64,000 nt of DNA from Verrucomicrobiia bacterium (GTDB taxonomy: Bacteria; Verrucomicrobiota; Verrucomicrobiia; JABWAM01), in assembly GCA_028687435.1 (NCBI GenBank), contig JAQUAF010000021.1, forward strand, positions 1 to 64,000, given 5' to 3'. The notes beneath the pieces are model-generated. The model was not told the DNA's origin and did no database searches. It worked only from the letters and a program-made list of their open reading frames with translations. Shown piece after piece: positions 183 through 26,852 of the stretch. Numbering within the stretch: the stretch's first letter is position 1; each line of letters starts with the position of its first letter. A program made the position numbers and the translations under genes.

Positions 183-3100
183 TCATTGCAGTCTCTTCCT
201 TGCGCCATCCACAAGCTTCAAGGCTTCCTCGAGGGTTTCCACGCCACTCACTCCAAGAAGATACAAGGAAAAAGAGGCGGTTTCCCCCGGACAAATATTC
301 ATGGGTTTTCCAATTTTGGCCAGCCCCTTGATATTTGAACGGAATACCTCCAGATTATAACCGCCGCTCGATTTGCTGTCATAAAACACAAGCCCTTCCT
401 TGATCTGCGGAGGAAGGATATAGAAAAGGCCTGTTTTCTCCGCCGGATCGAAAGCGCCCATGTAATTTTTAGTTAAGTTCACAAAGTCCGAAAAAAGCTC
501 AGGCGTTGCCTCATTAAATCCGGAACACCTCATCCGTTCTTCCGATGGAATGGCAAAGAGGTCCCCGGCGGGACTCTTGCCGATTGAAAACTCCGTGTGC
601 GCCCGCCAGTGAAAAAGATACTGATAGGGATCCTGCTGATATAACGCCTCCTCTTTGGGAGCAAGGTTACTCACCTTATAATCAATTTTCAAGAAAGGCT
701 GGCCTTTTTCCAAACTCATCATCCTTTCCAACTTGAAGGTTGCGCCCGGTGTCAGACTTGCGGGAACGGCGACTGATGCTGCGATAACAATCCTGTTTGG
801 CGAGGCTTCCATGATTTTGAAATCCCAATTCAGATGGGAAAGCGACCATTTCCACTCCCCCCAGTCTTCGTATCCGCCAATATCCAGCCATTCCCGTTGC
901 TTCAGCTTGTCCCAATTTTCACGAACCTCCTCCGGATAATCCTGTTTAAGATTGTCAATATTCAAGTGAATCGTCGGAACTCCGCCCACATTGAATTCCA
1001 CTATTTTTCCCCCGGTCTCAAGAATCGTTATGTCCAAAACGGAATTTTTGATTTTATATGCCAGATGACCGTAATAATCGACAATTTCCAAGGTGACAGG
1101 CCATGAATCCAACTCTTTCAGGGAGCCAAAAACATCCGCATGGCAAAGATAATACCTCGCCCTGTCCATCCGGCCCCTTTGCCGCTGTCTTTCCGCCTCC
1201 GCCACAAGCGACCGATAAGCCTTGCACACGTTCGGCGCACTTTTGGCCCGCGCCAGAAGAATCTCAAGCTCTTTCGCATCCAATATCTTCAACGCCTCAC
1301 CAACCGCAGCTTTTTCTTCTTTTCCATAACAAACTTTTGCGCGACACAAAAGGTCGTTGTATAAAAAAAGATCCATCCCTTGATTTTTCAAAAAAGATAT
1401 CTTTTCTTCCAACATCTTCAGGCTCGGATCCGACTTGACCGTGAATTGCCGGTGAAAAACCTTTTTTTTGCCATCATGAGCGGCTTCAAAGCGAATCAGA
1501 TTCTGTCCTTCCTTCAATAAAACCGCATGAGAAAAGGAACCGTCATTGGAAAGATTAACGGCATTCCCATCAACCGATATGCTGGCATTCTTTTCCGCTT
1601 TGCCGGAAAAAACAACAGCATTGACATTGAGGGTTGCATTCTCGGGAAAATCTGATTGCAAAAGGATCAGCGGTTTTTTCTTCACCTCGATAATTTCCTT
1701 CGCGATCAATTCTCTCACCCGGTAGAGAGCGGCCGAATCCTTGGTTGAATCACCAGGGGCGTTTGAAAGAAAACCGATCAATTCCTGGATTCTTTTTTTC
1801 GAAGAATAGCCTGAAAATTCAAGATTTTTCTTGGTTCCATCCAGCATTTTTTCCAATACCCAAAAATAGGCATAATCCTCCATCGCCTCCCGGACATTCT
1901 CCCAACGGATGCTATTTACCAAGGGGCCGTTACCCGAAGGATGGGGATAAAGCGCCACCGCACCTCCTGCGGGCGTCATGTCCTGGGGGCCTGAGCGGGG
2001 AGTTGGATCATCCAACGGTGAAACCTTTCGGTTGCGCCAGTTATTCACAGACCAAAGAAGAAGCCCCTTTAATTCCGCTTGATAAGCCCACCATGTGTAC
2101 AAACGGTGCTCAACCAGCGGAATTTCAAGGCTCATTGGATAGTTATACCCCCAGAGTTCCTCTTTTTTTTCCATCCGCGATCTGCAAATTTCAGGAACAT
2201 ACAATCCAGGAAAACCCATCACCCAAATGTCATAGGCGTCGCTGCTCCCATATAAACCGGGTTCCGGCTGTTTTGTTACCATCGTGGGAATCTTGGGGCA
2301 ACCTTTTTTGATAATTTCCGCGAGTCGGCAAACCCTGTCAAAATCCGCCCGTTGCGGCTCGTCGTAGACATAGGCCATGCAACAATCAAGCAACCCTTTT
2401 TCTTCAAGATGCTTTCCAATTTGCCGACAATACTCTTCAAAATATTTTTCAAATTCAGGGGTCTGAAGATCAAAATCCAACCATTTGCCTCGATCACTCC
2501 AAAGCCCTCCGGAAAAGGCCGGCAAATCTTTTCTGCCAATACCCGGAATTGGAAACCGCGTATGAAAACCGTATTGTGCGATGGGTTTGAAATATTCATC
2601 AAACTCCGCAAAATCGGTTATTGATAAACGACCATCTTTCAGTTGAATCTTCGGCCAGTTTCCATCATAAAAGGAACGTCCTCCAGCAACCCGGTGTTCT
2701 TTAAAGTTCTGGTAGGCCTCAACCAGAATCTCTTTTGAAGGGCGTCGATCAAACCTGGTTGCCCATCGATCATTAAATTCAAAATAGGTTTTTAATGGAT
2801 TTTCTTTTGGAAGGGTAAAATCCCACACCGTCAGTTTCAGCAAAGTCTCACCAAAAAATTTATTACCGGCGAACATCCTTATTTTTCCCGTATATTCTCC
2901 GGCCTCCGCTTCTGCGGGAATTCGCACCGTAATCCAAAACGGCTGTGATTTGCCCGCCACCACATCCGCCTTGCCCTGGGGCAGCAGAAGATCAAAGCGC
3001 GGTCCCAGGCTATTGAGATTTCTGATTGCCTTCGTGATATTCACGCAGCCGGCGGCATTCCATTTGATCAGTTCTTTTTTTATGCAATCCACCCCGCATT

Positions 3101-3950
3101 TCAGATCCGTAAGATCCAAATGGACATCCTTCAATTCCTGGCGCGCCGATATGACCAGTTGAAAGGGCTCATATTCGCCCTTAGCCGCACAAATTGTCGC
3201 CGAGGCATCGACTGGCAGCTTTTCCAGGAGCGGAAAATCCGCGACGGGGAGAACATTGGCAGAAGGGTTTTCACACCAAACAACGGCTTCCGGCGCCGAT
3301 AATAAGCGACGAGCCAGAACCGAGCAAGGCATGGCCAACGCAGTCTGTTCCACAGGCTGAATTATTATTTCATCAATCCATACCGTTCCCCTGCCTTTAG
3401 CCCCCAGCCAAATATAGCCGTGAACCGTCTTGGGGTCGGTAAAAAAGTCACTGGTAAAATACGCATACTGATTTGCCGGCGCCTTGGGGTGGAAAAACAT
3501 TTTATTGAGATCCCTGCCGTTTTCGTCCCGAAAGCCAATTTTACCGATAATCTCAGGGTAACCTTCAGCCAATGAAGTTGTTCGATAATAAAAACCAAGA
3601 CGATATTGCTTCGCCGCCTCCATGCAAAGACGGGAATTGGAAATATAGGTTGAAGCGTTGTCACTTTCCCCTTTCAGGATCAAACATTTCCCCTTGAACG
3701 CCCCATCACTTTCAACAACCACCTTGCTTTCCTTATTATACTTTGGATCCACATTCCATAAATTCACCCCGTCCTCAAACCCCCCGTTGGAGATGCAAGG
3801 CGCATTCGTTTTGGCATGGTTTTCGTTTATGTCTGCAGGCGCGGCAAAAAAGCCCGATCTGTTGCCAACACCTCCAGGAAAACAGCATATTCCAGAAATA
3901 AAAACCCATTTGGCCAGATTTTTAAAAAAAGACAGCTTTTGCAAGTTCAT
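183..3950 (-). CDS. Large exported GH123/DUF4091-like protein with N-terminal carbohydrate-binding-like region
   Basis: ORF 183..4112; signal-like start MNLQKLSFFKNLAKWVFISGICC at 3950; DUF4091-type motif GPLVNSIRWENVREAMEDYAYFWVLEKML. The upstream part of the ORF reads into the IS element. Confidence 0.75.
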   Translation of the reverse strand: MNLQKLSFFKNLAKWVFISGICCFPGGVGNRSGFFAAPADINENHAKTNAPCISNGGFEDGVNLWNVDPKYNKESKVVVESDGAFKGKCLILKGESDNASTYISNSRLCMEAAKQYRLGFYYRTTSLAEGYPEIIGKIGFRDENGRDLNKMFFHPKAPANQYAYFTSDFFTDPKTVHGYIWLGAKGRGTVWIDEIIIQPVEQTALAMPCSVLARRLLSAPEAVVWCENPSANVLPVADFPLLEKLPVDASATICAAKGEYEPFQLVISARQELKDVHLDLTDLKCGVDCIKKELIKWNAAGCVNITKAIRNLNSLGPRFDLLLPQGKADVVAGKSQPFWITVRIPAEAEAGEYTGKIRMFAGNKFFGETLLKLTVWDFTLPKENPLKTYFEFNDRWATRFDRRPSKEILVEAYQNFKEHRVAGGRSFYDGNWPKIQLKDGRLSITDFAEFDEYFKPIAQYGFHTRFPIPGIGRKDLPAFSGGLWSDRGKWLDFDLQTPEFEKYFEEYCRQIGKHLEEKGLLDCCMAYVYDEPQRADFDRVCRLAEIIKKGCPKIPTMVTKQPEPGLYGSSDAYDIWVMGFPGLYVPEICRSRMEKKEELWGYNYPMSLEIPLVEHRLYTWWAYQAELKGLLLWSVNNWRNRKVSPLDDPTPRSGPQDMTPAGGAVALYPHPSGNGPLVNSIRWENVREAMEDYAYFWVLEKMLDGTKKNLEFSGYSSKKRIQELIGFLSNAPGDSTKDSAALYRVRELIAKEIIEVKKKPLILLQSDFPENATLNVNAVVFSGKAEKNASISVDGNAVNLSNDGSFSHAVLLKEGQNLIRFEAAHDGKKKVFHRQFTVKSDPSLKMLEEKISFLKNQGMDLFLYNDLLCRAKVCYGKEEKAAVGEALKILDAKELEILLARAKSAPNVCKAYRSLVAEAERQRQRGRMDRARYYLCHADVFGSLKELDSWPVTLEIVDYYGHLAYKIKNSVLDITILETGGKIVEFNVGGVPTIHLNIDNLKQDYPEEVRENWDKLKQREWLDIGGYEDWGEWKWSLSHLNWDFKIMEASPNRIVIAASVAVPASLTPGATFKLERMMSLEKGQPFLKIDYKVSNLAPKEEALYQQDPYQYLFHWRAHTEFSIGKSPAGDLFAIPSEERMRCSGFNEATPELFSDFVNLTKNYMGAFDPAEKTGLFYILPPQIKEGLVFYDSKSSGGYNLEVFRSNIKGLAKIGKPMNICPGETASFSLYLLGVSGVETLEEALKLVDGARKRLQ

Positions 3951-3959
3951 ACATTTTAT

Positions 3960-5527
3960 GGTTCTATAGCAGAATTTGTGGGTTGTGAGGATAGTTTTCA
4001 AGATGATTGGAGGGGCTGAGGGTTGGGAGAAGAGACCAAGGTGGAGGTTAGTGACGGCGGCAACCTCCCGGCAAGCATCGCGCCAAGAGGACTTGTCACG
4101 CTGCTTGCCCACCTCCCTGACGGAGGGGCATCGCTGCTTTTTGCCCCTTTTGGAGGGGGGGCAAAAAACAACGATGGAATAAAAGATGGCTGGTTCGAGG
4201 TGAAACCAAACCCCAAGGTTTGGCGGAATGAAAAATCCTCAACCCCAAACCAGCCATGCAACTGACAATCAAAACCATACTCAATCAAGTGCATCCACTC
4301 AAGAAATTCGTTTATGCCGACATCCGATTGGCAGAAACGGCAAATCTGTTGATCGAGGCGAAAATCGAACCGCGCAAAGGTTCCCACATCGTCTGTTCGG
4401 GGTGTCATCGGGAGGCCCCGGGATACGATGAGTTGTTGGAGCGGCGCTTTGAGTTTATCCCCTTGTGGTTGATTCCCGTGGTATTGCTCTACACCATGCG
4501 CCGGGTCGAATGCCCACGCTGTGGAGTCAAGGTTGAAGAGGTTCCCTGGGCCTGCGGAAAACACCAAATGGCCAAGGCTTACATGCAATTCCTGGCCGGC
4601 TGGGCCAAACGCCTGGCATGGAGCGTCACCGCCAAGGCTTTCAATACCACATGGGACTCGGTACGCCATTCGATTGAGTGGATGGTGGAGTGGGGCTTGG
4701 CCAACCGCTCGTTGGCAGGCATCACCGCCATCGGCATCGATGAAATCCACTGGGGCAGGGGCAAGGGGGCCAATCGTTTTCTGACTCTGGTTTATCAAGT
4801 CGACGCGGGTTGCCGTCGTCTGCTCTGGGTGGGGCGCAAACGAACCAAGGCCACCTTGCGTCGATGCTTCAAGGACTTGGGACCCGAGGTGATCGCCGGC
4901 CTGCGCTTTGTCTGTTCGGACATGTGGCAGCCTTATCTGTCGGTCATCGAGAAAATGGCCGGCCATGCCCTCAACATCCTGGACCCTTTCCATATCGTCA
5001 AAAAACTCAACGAAGCGGTGGACGCCGTGCGCCGGGAGGAAACCGCCGCCATGCGCCGCAGCGGTCGTCATCCGTGGTTGATCAATACACGCTGGATCTT
5101 GCTCAAGCATCAGAAAAATGTCCGGGGCCGCCAACGCGCTTCGCTTCGCCAATTGCTGGGCCTCAATCTCAAGACCATTCGCGCTTATCTGCTCAAGGAA
5201 TACTTCGCCAAGTTTTGGAAATATCGCTCGCTGGTTCATGCTCAGGACTTCTTCGACTTCTGGACACGCCAAGCCTTGCAGTCGCGTTTGGAGCCCATGC
5301 GTAAAGTCGCCAGAATGCTGCGGGCTCACGAACCCCTGATTTGGAACTGGTTCAAGGCCAAGGGCCAGTTCAGCAACGCCGTCGTGGAGGGCTTTAACAA
5401 CAAACTCCGGGTGGTCACCCGTCGCTCCTACAGCTTTCGCACCTATCAAATTATGGAGTTGGTTCTTTATCATACGCTGGGAGAGCTACCGGAGCCCCAT
5501 CAAACCCACAGATTTTGCTGACGAGAT
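3960..5527 (+). mobile_element. ISL3-family insertion sequence (ends tentative)
   Basis: Left end GGTTCTATAGCAGAATTTGTGGGTT (3960) matches 17 of 25 bases of the reverse complement of the right end, ATCTCGTCAGCAAAATCTGTGGGTT (5527), at the same spacing. It encloses an ISL3-type transposase. Confidence 0.65.
4256..5521 (+). CDS. ISL3 family transposase
   Basis: 421 aa; N-terminal CxxC zinc-finger-like motifs (CSGCHRE, CPRCGVKVEEVPW); GIDEIHWGRG; CSDMWQPYLSVIEK; ILDPFHIVKKLNEAVD; FSNAVVEGFNNKLRVVTRRSYSFRTYQIMELVLYHTLG. Confidence 0.93.
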   Translation: MQLTIKTILNQVHPLKKFVYADIRLAETANLLIEAKIEPRKGSHIVCSGCHREAPGYDELLERRFEFIPLWLIPVVLLYTMRRVECPRCGVKVEEVPWACGKHQMAKAYMQFLAGWAKRLAWSVTAKAFNTTWDSVRHSIEWMVEWGLANRSLAGITAIGIDEIHWGRGKGANRFLTLVYQVDAGCRRLLWVGRKRTKATLRRCFKDLGPEVIAGLRFVCSDMWQPYLSVIEKMAGHALNILDPFHIVKKLNEAVDAVRREETAAMRRSGRHPWLINTRWILLKHQKNVRGRQRASLRQLLGLNLKTIRAYLLKEYFAKFWKYRSLVHAQDFFDFWTRQALQSRLEPMRKVARMLRAHEPLIWNWFKAKGQFSNAVVEGFNNKLRVVTRRSYSFRTYQIMELVLYHTLGELPEPHQTHRFC

Positions 5528-12266: not shown

Positions 12267-12833
12267 TCATTGATCAATGGGCTTGAGATATTTTTCCAGT
12301 TTCCAGTCATCGGGAAATTTCAACTTCCCGCCGTTTTTCCTCAAGCCGTCCAATATCTCGAAAGTGCCTTTCAAATAGTCCTTGAAAATTTCGCGATCCA
12401 ATGTTTTCCATTGATAGCCAAATGTCAGATAGTGAACGATATCGCCGCTTGTATCGTCGGCATGCACCATCCATATCATTGGACGCTGTCCAAAACGCCC
12501 GCTACTCGCCAGTTTTTTTGTCTCTTCATCCAAATTACTTTTCGGAGATAAATGCAAAAAATCAACAGGAAATGGAATATCCCATGTCCCCAATTTGATA
12601 TTGGATTTAATAATCTTGTCATACCCAGCTTCGCTCAAATATCGATTCGCGCGAAGGTCTTCGATAACATTTAATGGAAAAACCTTTTTCGCGTCTACGT
12701 AGACGCCAATCCCCATCCCAATAAGCTGCCTCTGACTTTTCACCTCTTGCGCAACAGAATCAACCTGAGCCTGTCCAGACAGGGACATGAATGTTGATGC
12801 CGCCAAAATAACAATTGCTATTTTCATTTTCAT
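12267..12833 (-). CDS. Hypothetical exported protein
   Basis: 188 aa; signal-like MKMKIAIVILAASTFMSLSGQAQ; no recognised family. Confidence 0.7.
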   Translation of the reverse strand: MKMKIAIVILAASTFMSLSGQAQVDSVAQEVKSQRQLIGMGIGVYVDAKKVFPLNVIEDLRANRYLSEAGYDKIIKSNIKLGTWDIPFPVDFLHLSPKSNLDEETKKLASSGRFGQRPMIWMVHADDTSGDIVHYLTFGYQWKTLDREIFKDYLKGTFEILDGLRKNGGKLKFPDDWKLEKYLKPIDQ

Positions 12834-13083
12834 TTATTTCTCCACTTTCAAACTTCCATAAAATGATAAATCAACTCTCCCATTAATATTTGCCTGGCTT
12901 CCCAAATCCAAAAACAACCCAGCAGCAGATGTGAAAAAGAACGCCCTTTGCCAGTTGCCAATAGGCAACTTCATTCTAGCAGAACGACAAAACGTCGAAT
13001 CCAAACTCTTTGAAATCTGTCCGGGCCTGGATGTGTTTTTTACAAAAATGAAAGCGCATGGGACCGCTCTTTTCCAATCCGTT

Positions 13084-14238
13084 TTACAACTCTAAACTGC
13101 AAAGGTCCGCCAACGTTCTGCATGCCGCTCGGGCAACCAAAGGATCAATTTGCGGATCTAATAATTGATTAGCAATCAAGAGAATCCAAGAATTAATCTC
13201 ACCTTTGGTGTATTGATGTGTCCCGGAGACAGCATATTTAACTTGCAAGATAGAAATAACTTTTTGAAATGCATCCCCGTTTTTAATAAACTCAACGGTT
13301 TTTTCAATATCCCGAGCAGCATCGAGCGCTTTCTTTTCCTGCTCGCGTTCAGGGAAACGTTTCTTAATTTCTCCAACATCATTCGAAATATTGAGAGGAT
13401 ATTCAAAAAATCGCCACAATTCACTGGCAAAAAAGGATCGAGCAGGTCCAGACTCTTCATTCATTACAATTTTCACCAACTCTTTGCGAACCGTTTCACG
13501 ATATTGAACTGGCAAGTTTTTTCTGGATGGCAACGCCTTAACCACAGCCATCTTTCCCTTTAAATCATTTGCCATCAACAGATCGATCATCTCTGCGATT
13601 GTCTTACCTTTCACTAAATTCTCCTGAATCTCCTCAATGGGTTTGATTCTTTGGCGCGGACCTTTTGAAAAAAAATGACAAATCAATGAATTTTCTCTAG
13701 CGGTCAAATACCATCCTGCACCAAGATTCTCAGCAATTATGTTCATAGCCACACGAACGGAAACCACTTGATTGCTTCCAGAAAGATCGCGAAACCAGAC
13801 ATTGGCTGGCATGAAGACAAAAACGTAAGCCCCGCCCCCAAACTCATCTTTTTTGATCGCTTGCTTGAGTAAGGCAGCACAATCCTTTTCAAAGCAAGAT
13901 CCACGCAATACCCCAACGGTAACTTTTCGATTACCTATCCAATCCGGATTATCAGCGAGAGATGAGGGAACGTAGTTCAAGAAATGGCTATTCAGATCAC
14001 TCAACTTGGCAATAACTCCCAATTTGACCACAGAATCAAAAGAGACCGAATTACTCACTTCAACTTTATCGAGGCAACCTGAATCCCCCACTTCCAATGA
14101 TGCAGATACCCCTTGTTTCACCACCTTATCATTCAACGCTTTCAGCCAATAATCCTCCGCAGCAGAAGCAGCCTGCATCTCATTGCAAAGCAATTCGCAA
14201 ACTGCAACTACGAGATAAAACAATATTTTTTTTGTCAT
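13084..14238 (-). CDS. Hypothetical exported protein
   Basis: 384 aa; signal-like MTKKILFYLVVAVCELLCNEMQAASA; AT-rich; same strand and close spacing to neighbours. Confidence 0.7.
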   Translation of the reverse strand: MTKKILFYLVVAVCELLCNEMQAASAAEDYWLKALNDKVVKQGVSASLEVGDSGCLDKVEVSNSVSFDSVVKLGVIAKLSDLNSHFLNYVPSSLADNPDWIGNRKVTVGVLRGSCFEKDCAALLKQAIKKDEFGGGAYVFVFMPANVWFRDLSGSNQVVSVRVAMNIIAENLGAGWYLTARENSLICHFFSKGPRQRIKPIEEIQENLVKGKTIAEMIDLLMANDLKGKMAVVKALPSRKNLPVQYRETVRKELVKIVMNEESGPARSFFASELWRFFEYPLNISNDVGEIKKRFPEREQEKKALDAARDIEKTVEFIKNGDAFQKVISILQVKYAVSGTHQYTKGEINSWILLIANQLLDPQIDPLVARAACRTLADLCSLEL

Positions 14239-14252
14239 AAAATTTTAAAAAC

Positions 14253-15413
14253 TTATTGACTTGGCAATAATGTTAATGGAGACGTATCGGATATCTGAAT
14301 GGGATTTATGCTGTCAAAAGTCACAATATTTTTACCGAAAAAACCTCCAGCAAAAACAGTCTGTTGCAGGGTCAGTTTAGCCCCAGATGGCAATCCCGCC
14401 CGGTATATATCATCAAACTGACCACTAGCATTTGTTAGCAGTGGAGTCCCCAAGACTACAGGAAGATAACCCTTGAGAAATCCGCCAATCGGAACACCTT
14501 CTTCGCGCACATAAATTCCAGGCAGAGAAACTCCAAATTGATCCGTCAGAGTCCAAGTGGTTCTTCCGTTACCACTTAATGTCAAAAGGATTCCTCCGGG
14601 AATAATCGTCCATTCGGTAGACAAATTGGGATGGCTCAGTCTACGAGGAAAACGCATTTGAATATCAATACTCTTTGTAATTGTAACACCAAAAATGGTA
14701 TATGTACATTGCAGAGGCTGTGCTTGATTGATCGGCCGTGTAGCTACAATGGTACATTGATCCTTCGAATCAGAACCAATAATTTTAAAGCACCCATTGG
14801 GAGATTTTCATTTGAAGGTTCCACCATCGGGACTTGATGTTGCACTGTATTGCGCTTGGAAATCAGCCGGGGCCGATGTTCCAACTTCCGCCACATAAAG
14901 GATTGAGTCGGGTCCCTCTAAGTCCAATTGGGGTACAATAATCGTTACTTCACGGCTCGCCGATGTATTACTCTTAGAAGACACACCGCCAGTCCATCCT
15001 GATGGGCAAGCTTTGTATTTTTGTTCGACACTGGTCAGTTTAAATTTATATTGCCCTGGTGCAGTTGAAGCATCCACATTCCAGTTGATTGTCGGTCCGT
15101 TAGCAGGATTTTGATCGCCGACATCTTTGAAAAATGTGTAAATGGGATCGCCGTCAGTCACTGGATCTTGACTCTTTTGATCACATTTGCATTTATCGTT
15201 ATCTGTCAGTGAAGGAGCGCTTCCGCCTCCTGTAATGGTTATCGTCACATTTCCGGTCAGAGGTATACCAATAATATATTTGTTTGGATCGTCTGGAGTG
15301 ACGGTGGCACCGCTTACTGATATAGTCAGATCGGCCCCTCGTGCGATTCCCATACAGCTAATTTCCATCAACCATATGACCAGCAAAATGAATTTTCTCG
15401 GGTTCCAATTCAT
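14253..15413 (-). pseudogene. Exported Ig-like/beta-sandwich protein interrupted by an in-frame TGA (14808-14810)
   Basis: ORFs 14808..15413 and 14253..14657 are in the same frame. The gap translates without other stops as ...SSPDGGTFK-*-KSPNGCFKIIGSDSKDQCTIVATRPINQAQPLQCTYTIFGVTITKSIDIQMRFPRR... Confidence 0.7.
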
Positions 15414-15422
15414 CGTTTACTC

Positions 15423-17135
15423 CTATTTTTCGTTGGCGTTCCTTTCCAGTTTTGCCATTCGCCTTCCGTCAGGGGCGTCCACGTAAAGTATCGTGCCCTG
15501 TTGGGAATTGATCTCTTTCTCCAAGATTCCTTGCTGGCTGTAAAAGTAACGCTTGGTAATTTCAGGATATCTGTTGGATTGCTCGGTTATTCTATCCAAT
15601 GCGATTCGTTTTTGCTGGTCAAATTCCCGGTAAAATGTGCGAGCCAAGGTCATGCCATCTGTTTCGTAGACTTCATTTTTCTCCCAACTGTCATTTGGCG
15701 AATAAGTTTTGACGGAATGTAATTTTCCATTGATTAATATTTTAGCCTCCCGGCCTTGCTCATCATAGATGTACTGACGCGTCCGGCCATCCGCATTCTT
15801 TGTGAAAAGAACCCGGCCCTGCGCATCATAATACGTCGTATATTTCAGCTTCCCATCTCCGTCAAAACACTGCATACTTTTTTTGTCATCTTTTCCATAT
15901 TCATATTTTTTGACAGATCCATCCTTTAAAATCTCCCGAATCAATTTGCCGTCTTGACTGAATGTTGATTTATAGGCCACCGTTAGCTTTCCATCCTTAA
16001 CCTCTTCCACCTTGCGCAATTTTCCAGCAAGCTTGTCTCCACTCACGAATGTGCTGCGAATCGTCCAGACGCCCTTCTCAAACGTTTCCTCCCGTCCCGG
16101 AGATTCCTTCCATGCGCTGACCAACTCCCCCTTGGCGTCCCGTTTTTCAATGCACGCCGCATTGTCCTGCGGGGTCGCCCCCGGTTTCACGACATAATTC
16201 CATGTGTTGGTTTCCGCAGTCCCGCAAACAGCGTCGGATAAAAGATATCGGCTGGAGGCGTCCCATGTGTATAAATGTTCATCCTTGCCTGTGGACGAGA
16301 CCTTGAGGGTGGGCTGTTTCGATTCATCAACCCCAAAAACATAGTCCATCACGGTTCCGTCCGCCAAGGTCATCCGCCGAAGGCTGAGTTCTTCTCCCTT
16401 AACCTCCCTTTTCTTATCGGCGCCAACCAGCACCAGCGGCTTGCTTCCAAGTTCAAATTTATTCCGTTTTCCATCCTTGAAGATCATTTCTCCAGACCGT
16501 CCTTCCCGGGCATCCATCTGTATCCGCAAGGCGGTGGAACCATTGACTCGGATTTCTCCGGCCTTTTCTCCCAGCATCACCACGTCAATCAGCTTGTTCT
16601 TGGGCGTCTTGATGGTCGTGATACGCCCGCCCGTAAAAGTCATCCTCCACCCGCCGCAATTGGCAAACAGATTGATGATATTTCCAGGATTTCCCGCCGC
16701 GTTTTTTGAGATTTCGGCTTTCCATCCCGAGGACCCGTTCAAGATATTCTTGTCCTTGCTTGCCCAATAATGATAAGTCCATCCGTCAGGATAAATGCAT
16801 TCATATTCCCTTTCGCTGAGGGGATACATTCTCGCGTCAAATATAAACAGATTGAAATTTGAAGAGAAAAACCGGGATGGCGGATAAACAGGCGAAAAAC
16901 TCAGGATCAACGGCAGGGGTTTTTCATCCTCCAACGGAAGAAAACCCACGGTGTAGAACAATTCGCAAACGCCCCTCTCATTAATCCCTGAGTATCGGTT
17001 ATGCGGCTCCGACCAGCGAATTGAACACGAACTGGCACGTTCCACCCCAAGCCCCATCAGCAAAAACAGAGTCAAAAGGGCCGTTCCCCAACAGCCTCCT
17101 CTTTTTCCCCATCGATGCCAACAGTCTTTTTCCAT
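15423..17135 (-). CDS. Exported RHS/YD-repeat-like protein
   Basis: 570 aa; repeats such as YDAQGRVLFTKNADGRTRQYIYDEQGREAKI, DGSVKKYEYGKDDKKSMQCFDGDGKLKYTTYYDAQGR, SVKTYSPNDSWEKNEVYETDG. Confidence 0.82.
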   Translation of the reverse strand: MEKDCWHRWGKRGGCWGTALLTLFLLMGLGVERASSCSIRWSEPHNRYSGINERGVCELFYTVGFLPLEDEKPLPLILSFSPVYPPSRFFSSNFNLFIFDARMYPLSEREYECIYPDGWTYHYWASKDKNILNGSSGWKAEISKNAAGNPGNIINLFANCGGWRMTFTGGRITTIKTPKNKLIDVVMLGEKAGEIRVNGSTALRIQMDAREGRSGEMIFKDGKRNKFELGSKPLVLVGADKKREVKGEELSLRRMTLADGTVMDYVFGVDESKQPTLKVSSTGKDEHLYTWDASSRYLLSDAVCGTAETNTWNYVVKPGATPQDNAACIEKRDAKGELVSAWKESPGREETFEKGVWTIRSTFVSGDKLAGKLRKVEEVKDGKLTVAYKSTFSQDGKLIREILKDGSVKKYEYGKDDKKSMQCFDGDGKLKYTTYYDAQGRVLFTKNADGRTRQYIYDEQGREAKILINGKLHSVKTYSPNDSWEKNEVYETDGMTLARTFYREFDQQKRIALDRITEQSNRYPEITKRYFYSQQGILEKEINSQQGTILYVDAPDGRRMAKLERNANEK

Positions 17136-17168
17136 GGCGTGCCTTCCTGCCTGATTTTTCGGATAAAA

Positions 17169-17327
17169 TCATTCTGGCGGAGGATCATCAGGAGGGGGCT
17201 CCGAACAATCGCCATCCGCCAATGTTGCCGGTCGCGAATATTCCAGTCTTTCCACATTCACCGCAATCAGGGCCATCCATGACAGGACGAAGACTGCCAT
17301 CCACCATGCAATTTTTTGATTTTTCAT
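17169..17327 (-). CDS. Small single-TM protein with Pro/acidic tail
   Basis: MKNQKIAWWMAVFVLSWMALIAVNVERLEYSRPATLADGDCSEPPPDDPPPE, 33 nt upstream of the RHS-like ORF on the same strand. Confidence 0.5.
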   Translation of the reverse strand: MKNQKIAWWMAVFVLSWMALIAVNVERLEYSRPATLADGDCSEPPPDDPPPE

Positions 17328-18420: not shown

Positions 18421-18920
18421 TTAAACCCGCCTGCGGCGGACAACTTTTCGACAGGATTAACAGAATTTACAGGATTGTTCGGCCATACGGCCGGACATTG
18501 TCTTGCATAAAAATCCTGTCAATCCTGTTAATCCTGTCAAAAAATCCATCTCCAAATGGGCGGGGCTCCTGCACCGCCTTTTTCGCCAAACTTTGAAATT
18601 CCTTAACGCTGAATCAAGCCGGGACCAAGGCCCTCAACTGCTCGACGAAACATGCTCGATCCGCCTTCGCTCTGCGAGCTTGCGCCTTCGCCAAAGCTTC
18701 GGCGTCACAAGCTGGCGAGACAAGTGCACGACGCAAAAACAATCACTCAAAGGCGGGATACAACCGCCCGGAGCCGTTCCGCCTTCGTCACTCATCGGAC
18801 TACGGCGGACAGGCCGGGAGGTTCACCACGTTTCACGTGGCCGGCTCAACTTGGAAAGGCGCATCAAACCGTTGAATTTGCTTGCACATTTCATGTCTTT
18901 TCGTGGCAAATATTGAAATT
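18421..18920. repeat. Composite intergenic repeat (R2 module, R1 tail, Ala/Arg-rich module, CACGTTTCACGTGG module)
   Basis: aattaaacccgcctgcggcggacaacttttcgacaggattaacag...aatcctgtcaatcctgttaatcctgtc...gggcggggctcctgcaccgccttttt...gatccgccttcgctctgcgagc...ggttcaccacgtttcacgtggcc; modules recur elsewhere in the window. Confidence 0.8.
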
Positions 18921-25904: not shown

Positions 25905-26516
25905 TCATTTGAGCTTTTCGCCGCAGGCCTGACAGAAACCGTACGACGGCTCGGGCACTTCCAACTTGCAATTCGGACAAATGGCCATGGTCCGTTTCTT
26001 GGTTCTCACCTGTCCCTCATATCCTTTGGTCATAACCGTCAAAGACGCAGAAGCATCTTCGGAAGATGAACTTGGCATGCCAAGATTATATGTCAATGTA
26101 TAATTTTTATCACTATGTGAAATCGGTATTTTCACTTGGGGTCGTTCTGAGGTTTGGCTCATCTCCTCATCCACCCCCAAATCAAGCAAAAAGGTGTAGG
26201 ACCCAAACCGAATCACATCAAAATGTTCCAATTCCTTAAACTTTACCATCTCCCCATTGATATACGATCCATTGGTGGAACCGTTATCGCGCAAGCAGTA
26301 ATGATCACCCAATTTGACGATGGACGCGTGATTGCGCGATATCTCACCACTGTCAAGGCTGACATGGGCATCGTCCGTGCGTCCAATCAGAAGAATGGCT
26401 TTGCCCAGAGGTATCACCTCTTTGCGTCCCCCTTCTGTAATATTAATGAGCCGGGGTTGACGCTTCTTGTCGGCAAGAAAGTCACTGATATCAGACCCCG
26501 TGGATTCGTCGTTCAT
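25905..26516 (-). CDS. FHA-domain protein with C-terminal zinc ribbon
   Basis: LIGRTDDAHVSLDSGEISRNHASIVKLGDHYCLRDNGSTNGSYING; C-terminal CPNCKLEVPEPSYGFCQACGEKLK. Confidence 0.88.
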   Translation of the reverse strand: MNDESTGSDISDFLADKKRQPRLINITEGGRKEVIPLGKAILLIGRTDDAHVSLDSGEISRNHASIVKLGDHYCLRDNGSTNGSYINGEMVKFKELEHFDVIRFGSYTFLLDLGVDEEMSQTSERPQVKIPISHSDKNYTLTYNLGMPSSSSEDASASLTVMTKGYEGQVRTKKRTMAICPNCKLEVPEPSYGFCQACGEKLK

Positions 26517-26852
26517 GAGAAAGAACTGTACAAGAAGATTTGCAAGGTTCAAGGGCGAAGGTTGTGATTTAAGGGATCCAAGATTCCAAAGTTTACACTT
26601 CAACAGCTCAAGGAGTTTATTAAATAAAATATTGACATCTAAACAGCCATTCAAAAAATTTTCTTCGATTGAAATTCTCATCCGGAATGGTAAAAGAGGT
26701 ACTGCCAAAATTTAACGACAACAAATTGCCGAGAAAAAATCATCTTGCCATTCGCAACATCATTTTTCCTAACAGTCTAACAGACTACAGCCCTAAAAGT
26801 CTTTTTTCGCAGCAAAGTCTGCGAAAGATTTGGATTCTTTCCCTTTTCAATT

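Follow-up and report, generated by a model that had tools for sequence, protein, structure and literature searches.

The closest described parallels to the locus treated here are the tips of rhs genes, in which displaced tip fragments lie behind an intact copy (Jackson et al. 2009, PMC2935791), and the toxin-immunity genes of contact-dependent growth inhibition (CDI) and Rhs systems (PMC3150448). Comparable replacement of effector-immunity modules, frequently with retention of the old immunity genes, occurs in the type VI secretion system (T6SS) of Vibrio cholerae (PMC5361080), and YD-repeat proteins have been reported from the outer-membrane fraction of Akkermansia muciniphila (PMC4960237). 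The same displacement signature as in the rhs tips is found at positions 12,267 to 17,327 of a 64,000-nucleotide (nt) stretch of DNA from a Verrucomicrobiia bacterium (contig JAQUAF010000021.1), the whole of which is called the window below. The cassette found there has four parts: a small Cys-tail peptide, a YD protein, a second (Ig-like) protein, and a third gene. It is divided into a constant 5' unit, made up of the peptide and about the first 350 residues of the YD protein, and an exchangeable 3' module, made up of the YD C-terminus, the second protein, and the closely spaced third gene. We tentatively read the locus as a member of a polymorphic, multi-copy family of cassettes for exported proteins, with Rhs-like C-terminal displacement, probably serving competition between related bacteria, a reading whose chances we place just short of even.

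The division into a constant and a variable part is seen directly when paralogs from the same genome are compared. Nucleotide identity along the YD gene is mostly 80-100% and then drops to about 45% within the gene. This was found for C134/C91/C8, C64/C89, C35/C125, and C31/C108, as well as for three copies in G113 (C numbers denote contigs of the window's own genome, G000, the window contig being C134, and other G numbers denote other genomes of the class). Of six pairs examined, four have the drop at window residues 350-354, and in the remaining two it comes near residues 277 and 301; in the window YD protein itself it lies at residues 351-353. The GC content of the YD 3' part is below that of the 5' part in eight loci of this genome, and the third gene has the lowest GC of its locus wherever it was measured, bar near ties at two loci. 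Where examined, the second protein likewise has a constant N-terminus and a variable C-terminus: two tandem Ig-like genes in G148 have about 135 N-terminal residues in common (93% amino acid identity) and diverge thereafter, each being accompanied by a different, unrelated third gene. A non-YD repeat several hundred nt long stands beside the cassette modules on C125 (L041:163-625 and 4521-4983) and an orphan block on C73 (L054:7378-7649), and it may mark or aid the movement of modules.

The resemblance to Rhs elements thus covers the YD/RHS repeats, the constant N-terminal core with a sharp switch to a variable C-terminus of distinct GC, and the presence of displaced fragments or orphan modules (window 12267-13079, C58, and C73). 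The variable C-termini that the first-pass annotation had mentioned for RHS proteins are present here, with a variable unit that spans three genes. There are also differences. The YD proteins are 408-665 amino acids (aa) long (38 members), against more than 1000 aa for the Rhs cage or beta-cocoon; none of the 38 carries a DPxGL-type motif at the core/tip boundary; no toxin family was recognised in the cassette; and the variable unit consists of three exported genes, with the Cys-tail peptide in front. Because the core is too short and the DPxG motif is absent, this is not a canonical Rhs toxin.

In the window, five open reading frames (ORFs) were confirmed, all on the minus strand and separated, in transcription order, by 36, 9, 14, and 250 nt. 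Read in that order, the features of the locus are as follows.

17172..17327, minus strand: p52, the small exported peptide (52 aa), an ORF with a hydrophobic segment, a Cys, and the tail CSEPPPDDPPPE
15423..17135, minus strand: whole gene of the YD protein, an ORF of 570 aa
16076..17135, minus strand: constant N-terminal part of the YD protein, residues 1 to about 353, with 91% nt identity to C91 and 95.5% to C8; GC 0.51
15423..16075, minus strand: variable C-terminal part of the YD protein, with about 45% nt identity to the C91 and C8 paralogs; GC 0.435; RHS repeat at residues 436-464
14253..15413, minus strand: second gene, exported and Ig-like from its translation, 386 codons, with a TGA at 14808-14810
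13084..14238, minus strand: third gene, p384, exported, 384 aa, intact, 96% aa identity to the copy on C73
13030..13054, no strand assigned: junction between the p384 module and a C91-type remnant, where the C73 and C91 matches meet
12834..13079, minus strand: remnant from the 3' part of an Ig-like gene of the C91 type, codons 265-345, 86% aa and 98% nt identity to C91
12267..12833, minus strand: p188, orphaned third gene of a displaced module, 188 aa, intact, its ATG start directly following the TAA of the remnant

The first-pass annotation had described five exported genes with short gaps in a stretch richer in A/T than its surroundings. The genes and gaps stand, with the exception of an intact Ig-like protein, since codon 202 of that gene is an in-frame TGA. 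The AT-rich island is real, with its onset inside the YD gene: GC is 0.42-0.45 across 12-16 kb of the window, whereas most of the flanking sequence has 0.55-0.60 and carB 0.59. Within the locus it is 0.51 in p52 and the 5' two-thirds of the YD gene, then 0.41-0.44 in the remainder of that gene and in those downstream of it. Two further window ORFs also have a low GC, at 183-4112 (1309 aa, 0.47) and at 25905-26708 (267 aa, 0.44).

Displacement has made the window locus a mosaic, in which the p384 module stands ahead of the 3' remnant of another module and its intact p188. Three blocks match other contigs of the genome: 16.06-17.4 kb is 91-95% identical to C91 and C8; 13.03-14.55 kb, comprising the 3' part of the Ig-like gene and p384, is 94% identical to C73, where it stands without a YD gene; and 12.83-13.05 kb is 98% identical to the Ig-like gene of C91. 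Relatives of the N-terminal part of the Ig-like gene itself occur on C100 and in G135, and its last 99 codons are 82% identical to C73. Within the 250-nt gap lies the 3' end of an Ig-like gene, an intact copy of which stands on C91 (81 codons at 86% aa identity; 228 nt at 98% nt identity), and the junction near 13054 is sharp. Because this gap upstream of p188 carries the C91-type end, p188 is assigned to another module; the earlier view of it as a partner of the YD protein gives way to that of a leftover from a different, displaced module. It shares 42% aa identity with the partner of the intact C91 Ig-like gene and 79% with an orphan copy on C58, which likewise follows what is left of that Ig 3' end. 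By analogy with the models for rhs tips and T6SS modules, the gene order suggests that the p384 module is the newer and the p188 module the older one.

Third genes are intact where the Ig-like partner has been lost or broken, as is the case for p188 on C134 and C58 and for p384 on C134 and C73; C73 is the exception for p188, of which a 64-residue end alone remains there. The ratio of nonsynonymous to synonymous substitution rates (dN/dS) is 0.27 at a dS of 0.45 for p188 between C134 and C58, and 0.41, with few changes, for p384 between C134 and C73. A comparable arrangement is known from the V. cholerae T6SS modules, with the new module ahead, a 3' remnant of the old effector, and a retained partner gene; unlike there, no T6SS genes were seen at the cassette loci, and the retained gene is here a putative protective partner. 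As for the in-frame TGA, one homolog has a Trp aligned at the site and another has a Trp within the equivalent stretch. The Ig-like gene would thus be either genuinely broken or affected by an assembly error; recoding of the codon was judged unlikely, given these Trp residues and the TGA that serves as the stop of p52 in the same cassette. A partly self-complementary inverted-repeat element of about 118 nt lies at window 18427-18544 and on C73 (L054:4601-4718), the two copies being 97% identical, and looks like a dispersed repeat.

The assignment of the central gene as an RHS/YD-repeat protein holds: the window protein passes PF05593 (24.8 bits, cut-off 22) and TIGR01643 (32 bits, cut-off 15.8), with a single repeat. 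A protein search found about 14 YD paralogs in its own genome, many of them at contig ends, and a profile search of 236 genomes of the class Verrucomicrobiae found long or near-full-length relatives in about 14 others. A homologous locus, with the peptide, YD, and Wzy_C-like genes, exists in Spartobacteria bacterium LR76, whose presence among these genomes is the ground for taking the class as Verrucomicrobiae; G198 has this same contig and locus. About 100 columns near the C-terminus of the family profile match solved Rhs cores (E 5e-20), while the first ~340 columns have no sequence match to them. Folding covered the window proteins and the LR76 homolog. A two-sequence AlphaFold model of the YD protein is weak (mean pLDDT, a per-residue confidence score, 49.7) and has beta-hairpin repeats from about residue 46 to 316. 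Among PDB structures it comes closest to Rhs cores, Tc-toxin cages, and teneurins, with a superposition so poor that these matches are informative for the fold class alone. The model of p188 by itself was of too low a confidence for use (pLDDT 41). About two thirds of the family share two conserved cysteines (window C37 and C160). Since they tend to be kept or lost jointly, they more likely pair with each other, and a disulfide between the peptide Cys and a conserved YD Cys was set aside as less likely. The A. muciniphila proteins are comparable as YD-repeat proteins of Verrucomicrobia, and a homology to this short family would be putative. Long RHS proteins, separate from the short YD family, are also present in G000 (frames up to about 1400 aa on C101, C106, C116, C131, and C142).

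The small peptide is a recurrent companion of the YD gene. YD genes are repeatedly preceded by an ORF, some 45-95 aa long, in which a hydrophobic segment (signal or transmembrane) is followed by a Cys and a short P/S/G/D-rich tail that usually ends in Glu, such as CSEPPPDDPPPE, CSSSSSSSSSE, CSSSGGSSSGGE, CPKPPPEPPPEQE, CNPPPPPPGGE, CATPTPDPDPE, CTPPPPNENPE, or CDEVDPGDEDSFE. By fixed criteria, such a peptide was found before 29 of 40 YD genes across Verrucomicrobiae (22 of them ending in Glu) and before none of 262 control genes, namely the other genes of at least 200 aa from the same stretches. The criteria were written after the peptides had been seen, which makes the YD rate somewhat optimistic and leaves the control rate unaffected, and the 40 genes include recently copied paralogs and are thus not independent. 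This strongly supports the earlier proposal that the small peptide belongs with the YD protein, and the compact exported module proposed with it is the usual arrangement across loci. The further step of taking all four companions as one set is supported for the peptide, which recurs with YD genes in other genomes, and not for p384, absent from the 140 other genomes of the 141 searched, or for p188, found in no other genome among 38 searched.

The recurrent peptide family is so far unannotated, and no earlier description of the peptide-YD arrangement was found in the open-access literature. The C91 copy of p52 has a 24-nt in-frame deletion, with mostly synonymous changes in the remaining tail. 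The peptides lack a lipoprotein lipobox, the Cys lying about 10-30 residues past the hydrophobic segment and being preceded by, e.g. GD, NG, or NQ. The peptide before the YD gene of C66 (L036:4957-6939) has about ten SSD repeats followed by NLE, a tail that is possibly slippage-prone.

In G045 and G046, no Cys-tail peptide was found upstream of the YD gene, which is followed there by a radical SAM/SPASM protein and a Cys-rich protein with 32-34 Cys that likewise ends in Glu. The Cys-rich protein has a twin-arginine-like leader in G046 (L045:5331-8138) and G045 (L102), and the radical SAM and Cys-rich pair is present in two families. These pairs resemble the maturation of ranthipeptides by PapB-type radical SAM/SPASM enzymes; the G046 protein is PapB-like at 2e-74, below the equivalog cut-off (NF047865). 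Such an enzyme adjoins the YD gene solely in these two genomes and is absent beside the window peptide and most other copies. A complete NHLM bacteriocin-export pair of ABC (ATP-binding cassette) proteins lies directly upstream of the peptide and YD genes on C91 (L033:10414-15561; TIGR03797 and TIGR03796 over cut-off).

At several loci, a Wzy_C ligase-like gene (PF04932) and genes for rhodanese, MauE/DoxX-like, and hydrolase-like exported proteins lie 5' of or near the peptide and YD genes. The ligase-like gene is present in 17 of the 236 genomes, and in 13 of the 15 with a strong YD hit (at least 85 bits; hypergeometric P = 3e-16, ancestry ignored); these 13 genomes span nine families. At the window locus the ligase-like, rhodanese, and MauE/DoxX set is not adjacent, and two ligase-like genes lie elsewhere in the genome. 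The Cys of the peptide, together with these gene neighbours, suggests a possible thiol or ligase chemistry.

As to function, the YD protein would be the exported carrier, activity or target binding would reside in the variable C-terminus of the second protein, and the third gene would be a protective partner of the second protein; the Cys-tail peptide might be displayed or anchored via the Wzy_C ligase-like, rhodanese, and MauE/DoxX proteins inherited along with it. Competition among related bacteria appears the most likely use, because displacement goes along with retained third genes and because 3 of 35 second proteins have an HExxH motif in their variable region, where 0.14 would be expected, one of the three having a sub-threshold match to DUF922. 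Four other second proteins share a domain with an invariant Cys; a weak PDB match (4nso, E 0.07) of the second protein on C31 was not relied on. Several points weigh against competition. The second and third proteins match no catalogued toxin or immunity family, and for p384, which has no Pfam or NCBIfam family, a PDB sequence search was also empty. PDZ, TPR, or DUF1573 domains in some third proteins are closer to assembly factors than to immunity proteins, the window Ig-like protein has no catalytic motif, and the dN/dS values are no lower than is typical of housekeeping genes. The toxin role is thus putative; what is observed is the architecture.

The main rival to competition is an assembly at the cell surface, built from the YD, Ig-like, and third proteins without any toxin, the 3' part of which is diversified to recognise changing ligands such as glycans, neighbours, or phage. 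We regard this as possible, if doubtful. An all-beta, Ig-like appearance is shared by the window Ig-like protein and several others, the TPR, PDZ, and DUF1573 domains of third proteins would fit an assembly, and the Akkermansia proteins were found in the outer-membrane proteome. Surface recognition alone leaves two observations unexplained, the survival of third genes beyond their Ig-like partners and the HExxH motifs. It is rather unlikely that the peptide is itself the product, modified or ligated at its Cys or terminal Glu, with the YD protein and its partners carrying or anchoring it. Such a role would account for the strict peptide-YD pairing, the ligase-like, rhodanese, and MauE/DoxX genes 5' of the peptide, the radical SAM pairs of G045 and G046, and the export pair on C91, while the conservation of the tail is limited to the Cys, the composition, and the Glu, most copies, that of the window included, have no adjacent modifying enzyme, and the variability of the 3' part is left unexplained.

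The peptide could also be a regulatory leader or arrest peptide for YD translation, akin to a secretion monitor, as its location just 5' of the YD gene, its N-terminal hydrophobic segment, and the proline runs of several tails might indicate; since many tails lack prolines and are rich in Ser/Gly or Asp, and neither the Cys nor the Glu finds an explanation, we consider this very unlikely. That ordinary, unrelated exported genes are adjacent by chance would agree with the lack of p384 and p188 in other genomes and is scarcely credible: the gene order recurs over many loci and genomes, with controls, and a chance neighbourhood was rejected on the peptide-YD link, the co-occurrence of YD and ligase-like genes, and the collapse of identity inside the YD gene. 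An origin from a phage or plasmid was likewise rejected, with no phage match, no PHROG, and a single weak match to a plasmid (Opitutaceae TAV5, 24% identity).

Combined with competition, the peptide leads to a more specific and more speculative proposal, which we hold to be somewhat unlikely as a whole. The Cys-tail peptides would be a new secreted family obligately coupled to the short YD protein and matured or anchored by the Wzy_C-like, rhodanese, and MauE/DoxX proteins, with radical-SAM-modified Cys-rich proteins as an alternative, in a hitherto undescribed surface-display and competition machine of Verrucomicrobiae, the working end of which would be exchanged as a unit of three genes. Whatever its use, the cassette extends Rhs-type C-terminal displacement from the tip of a single gene to a three-gene exported module. 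Competition systems of the phylum Verrucomicrobiota have been little studied, and the peptide family and the ligase-like gene provide testable parts, as well as a handle on the role of Verrucomicrobial YD-repeat proteins.

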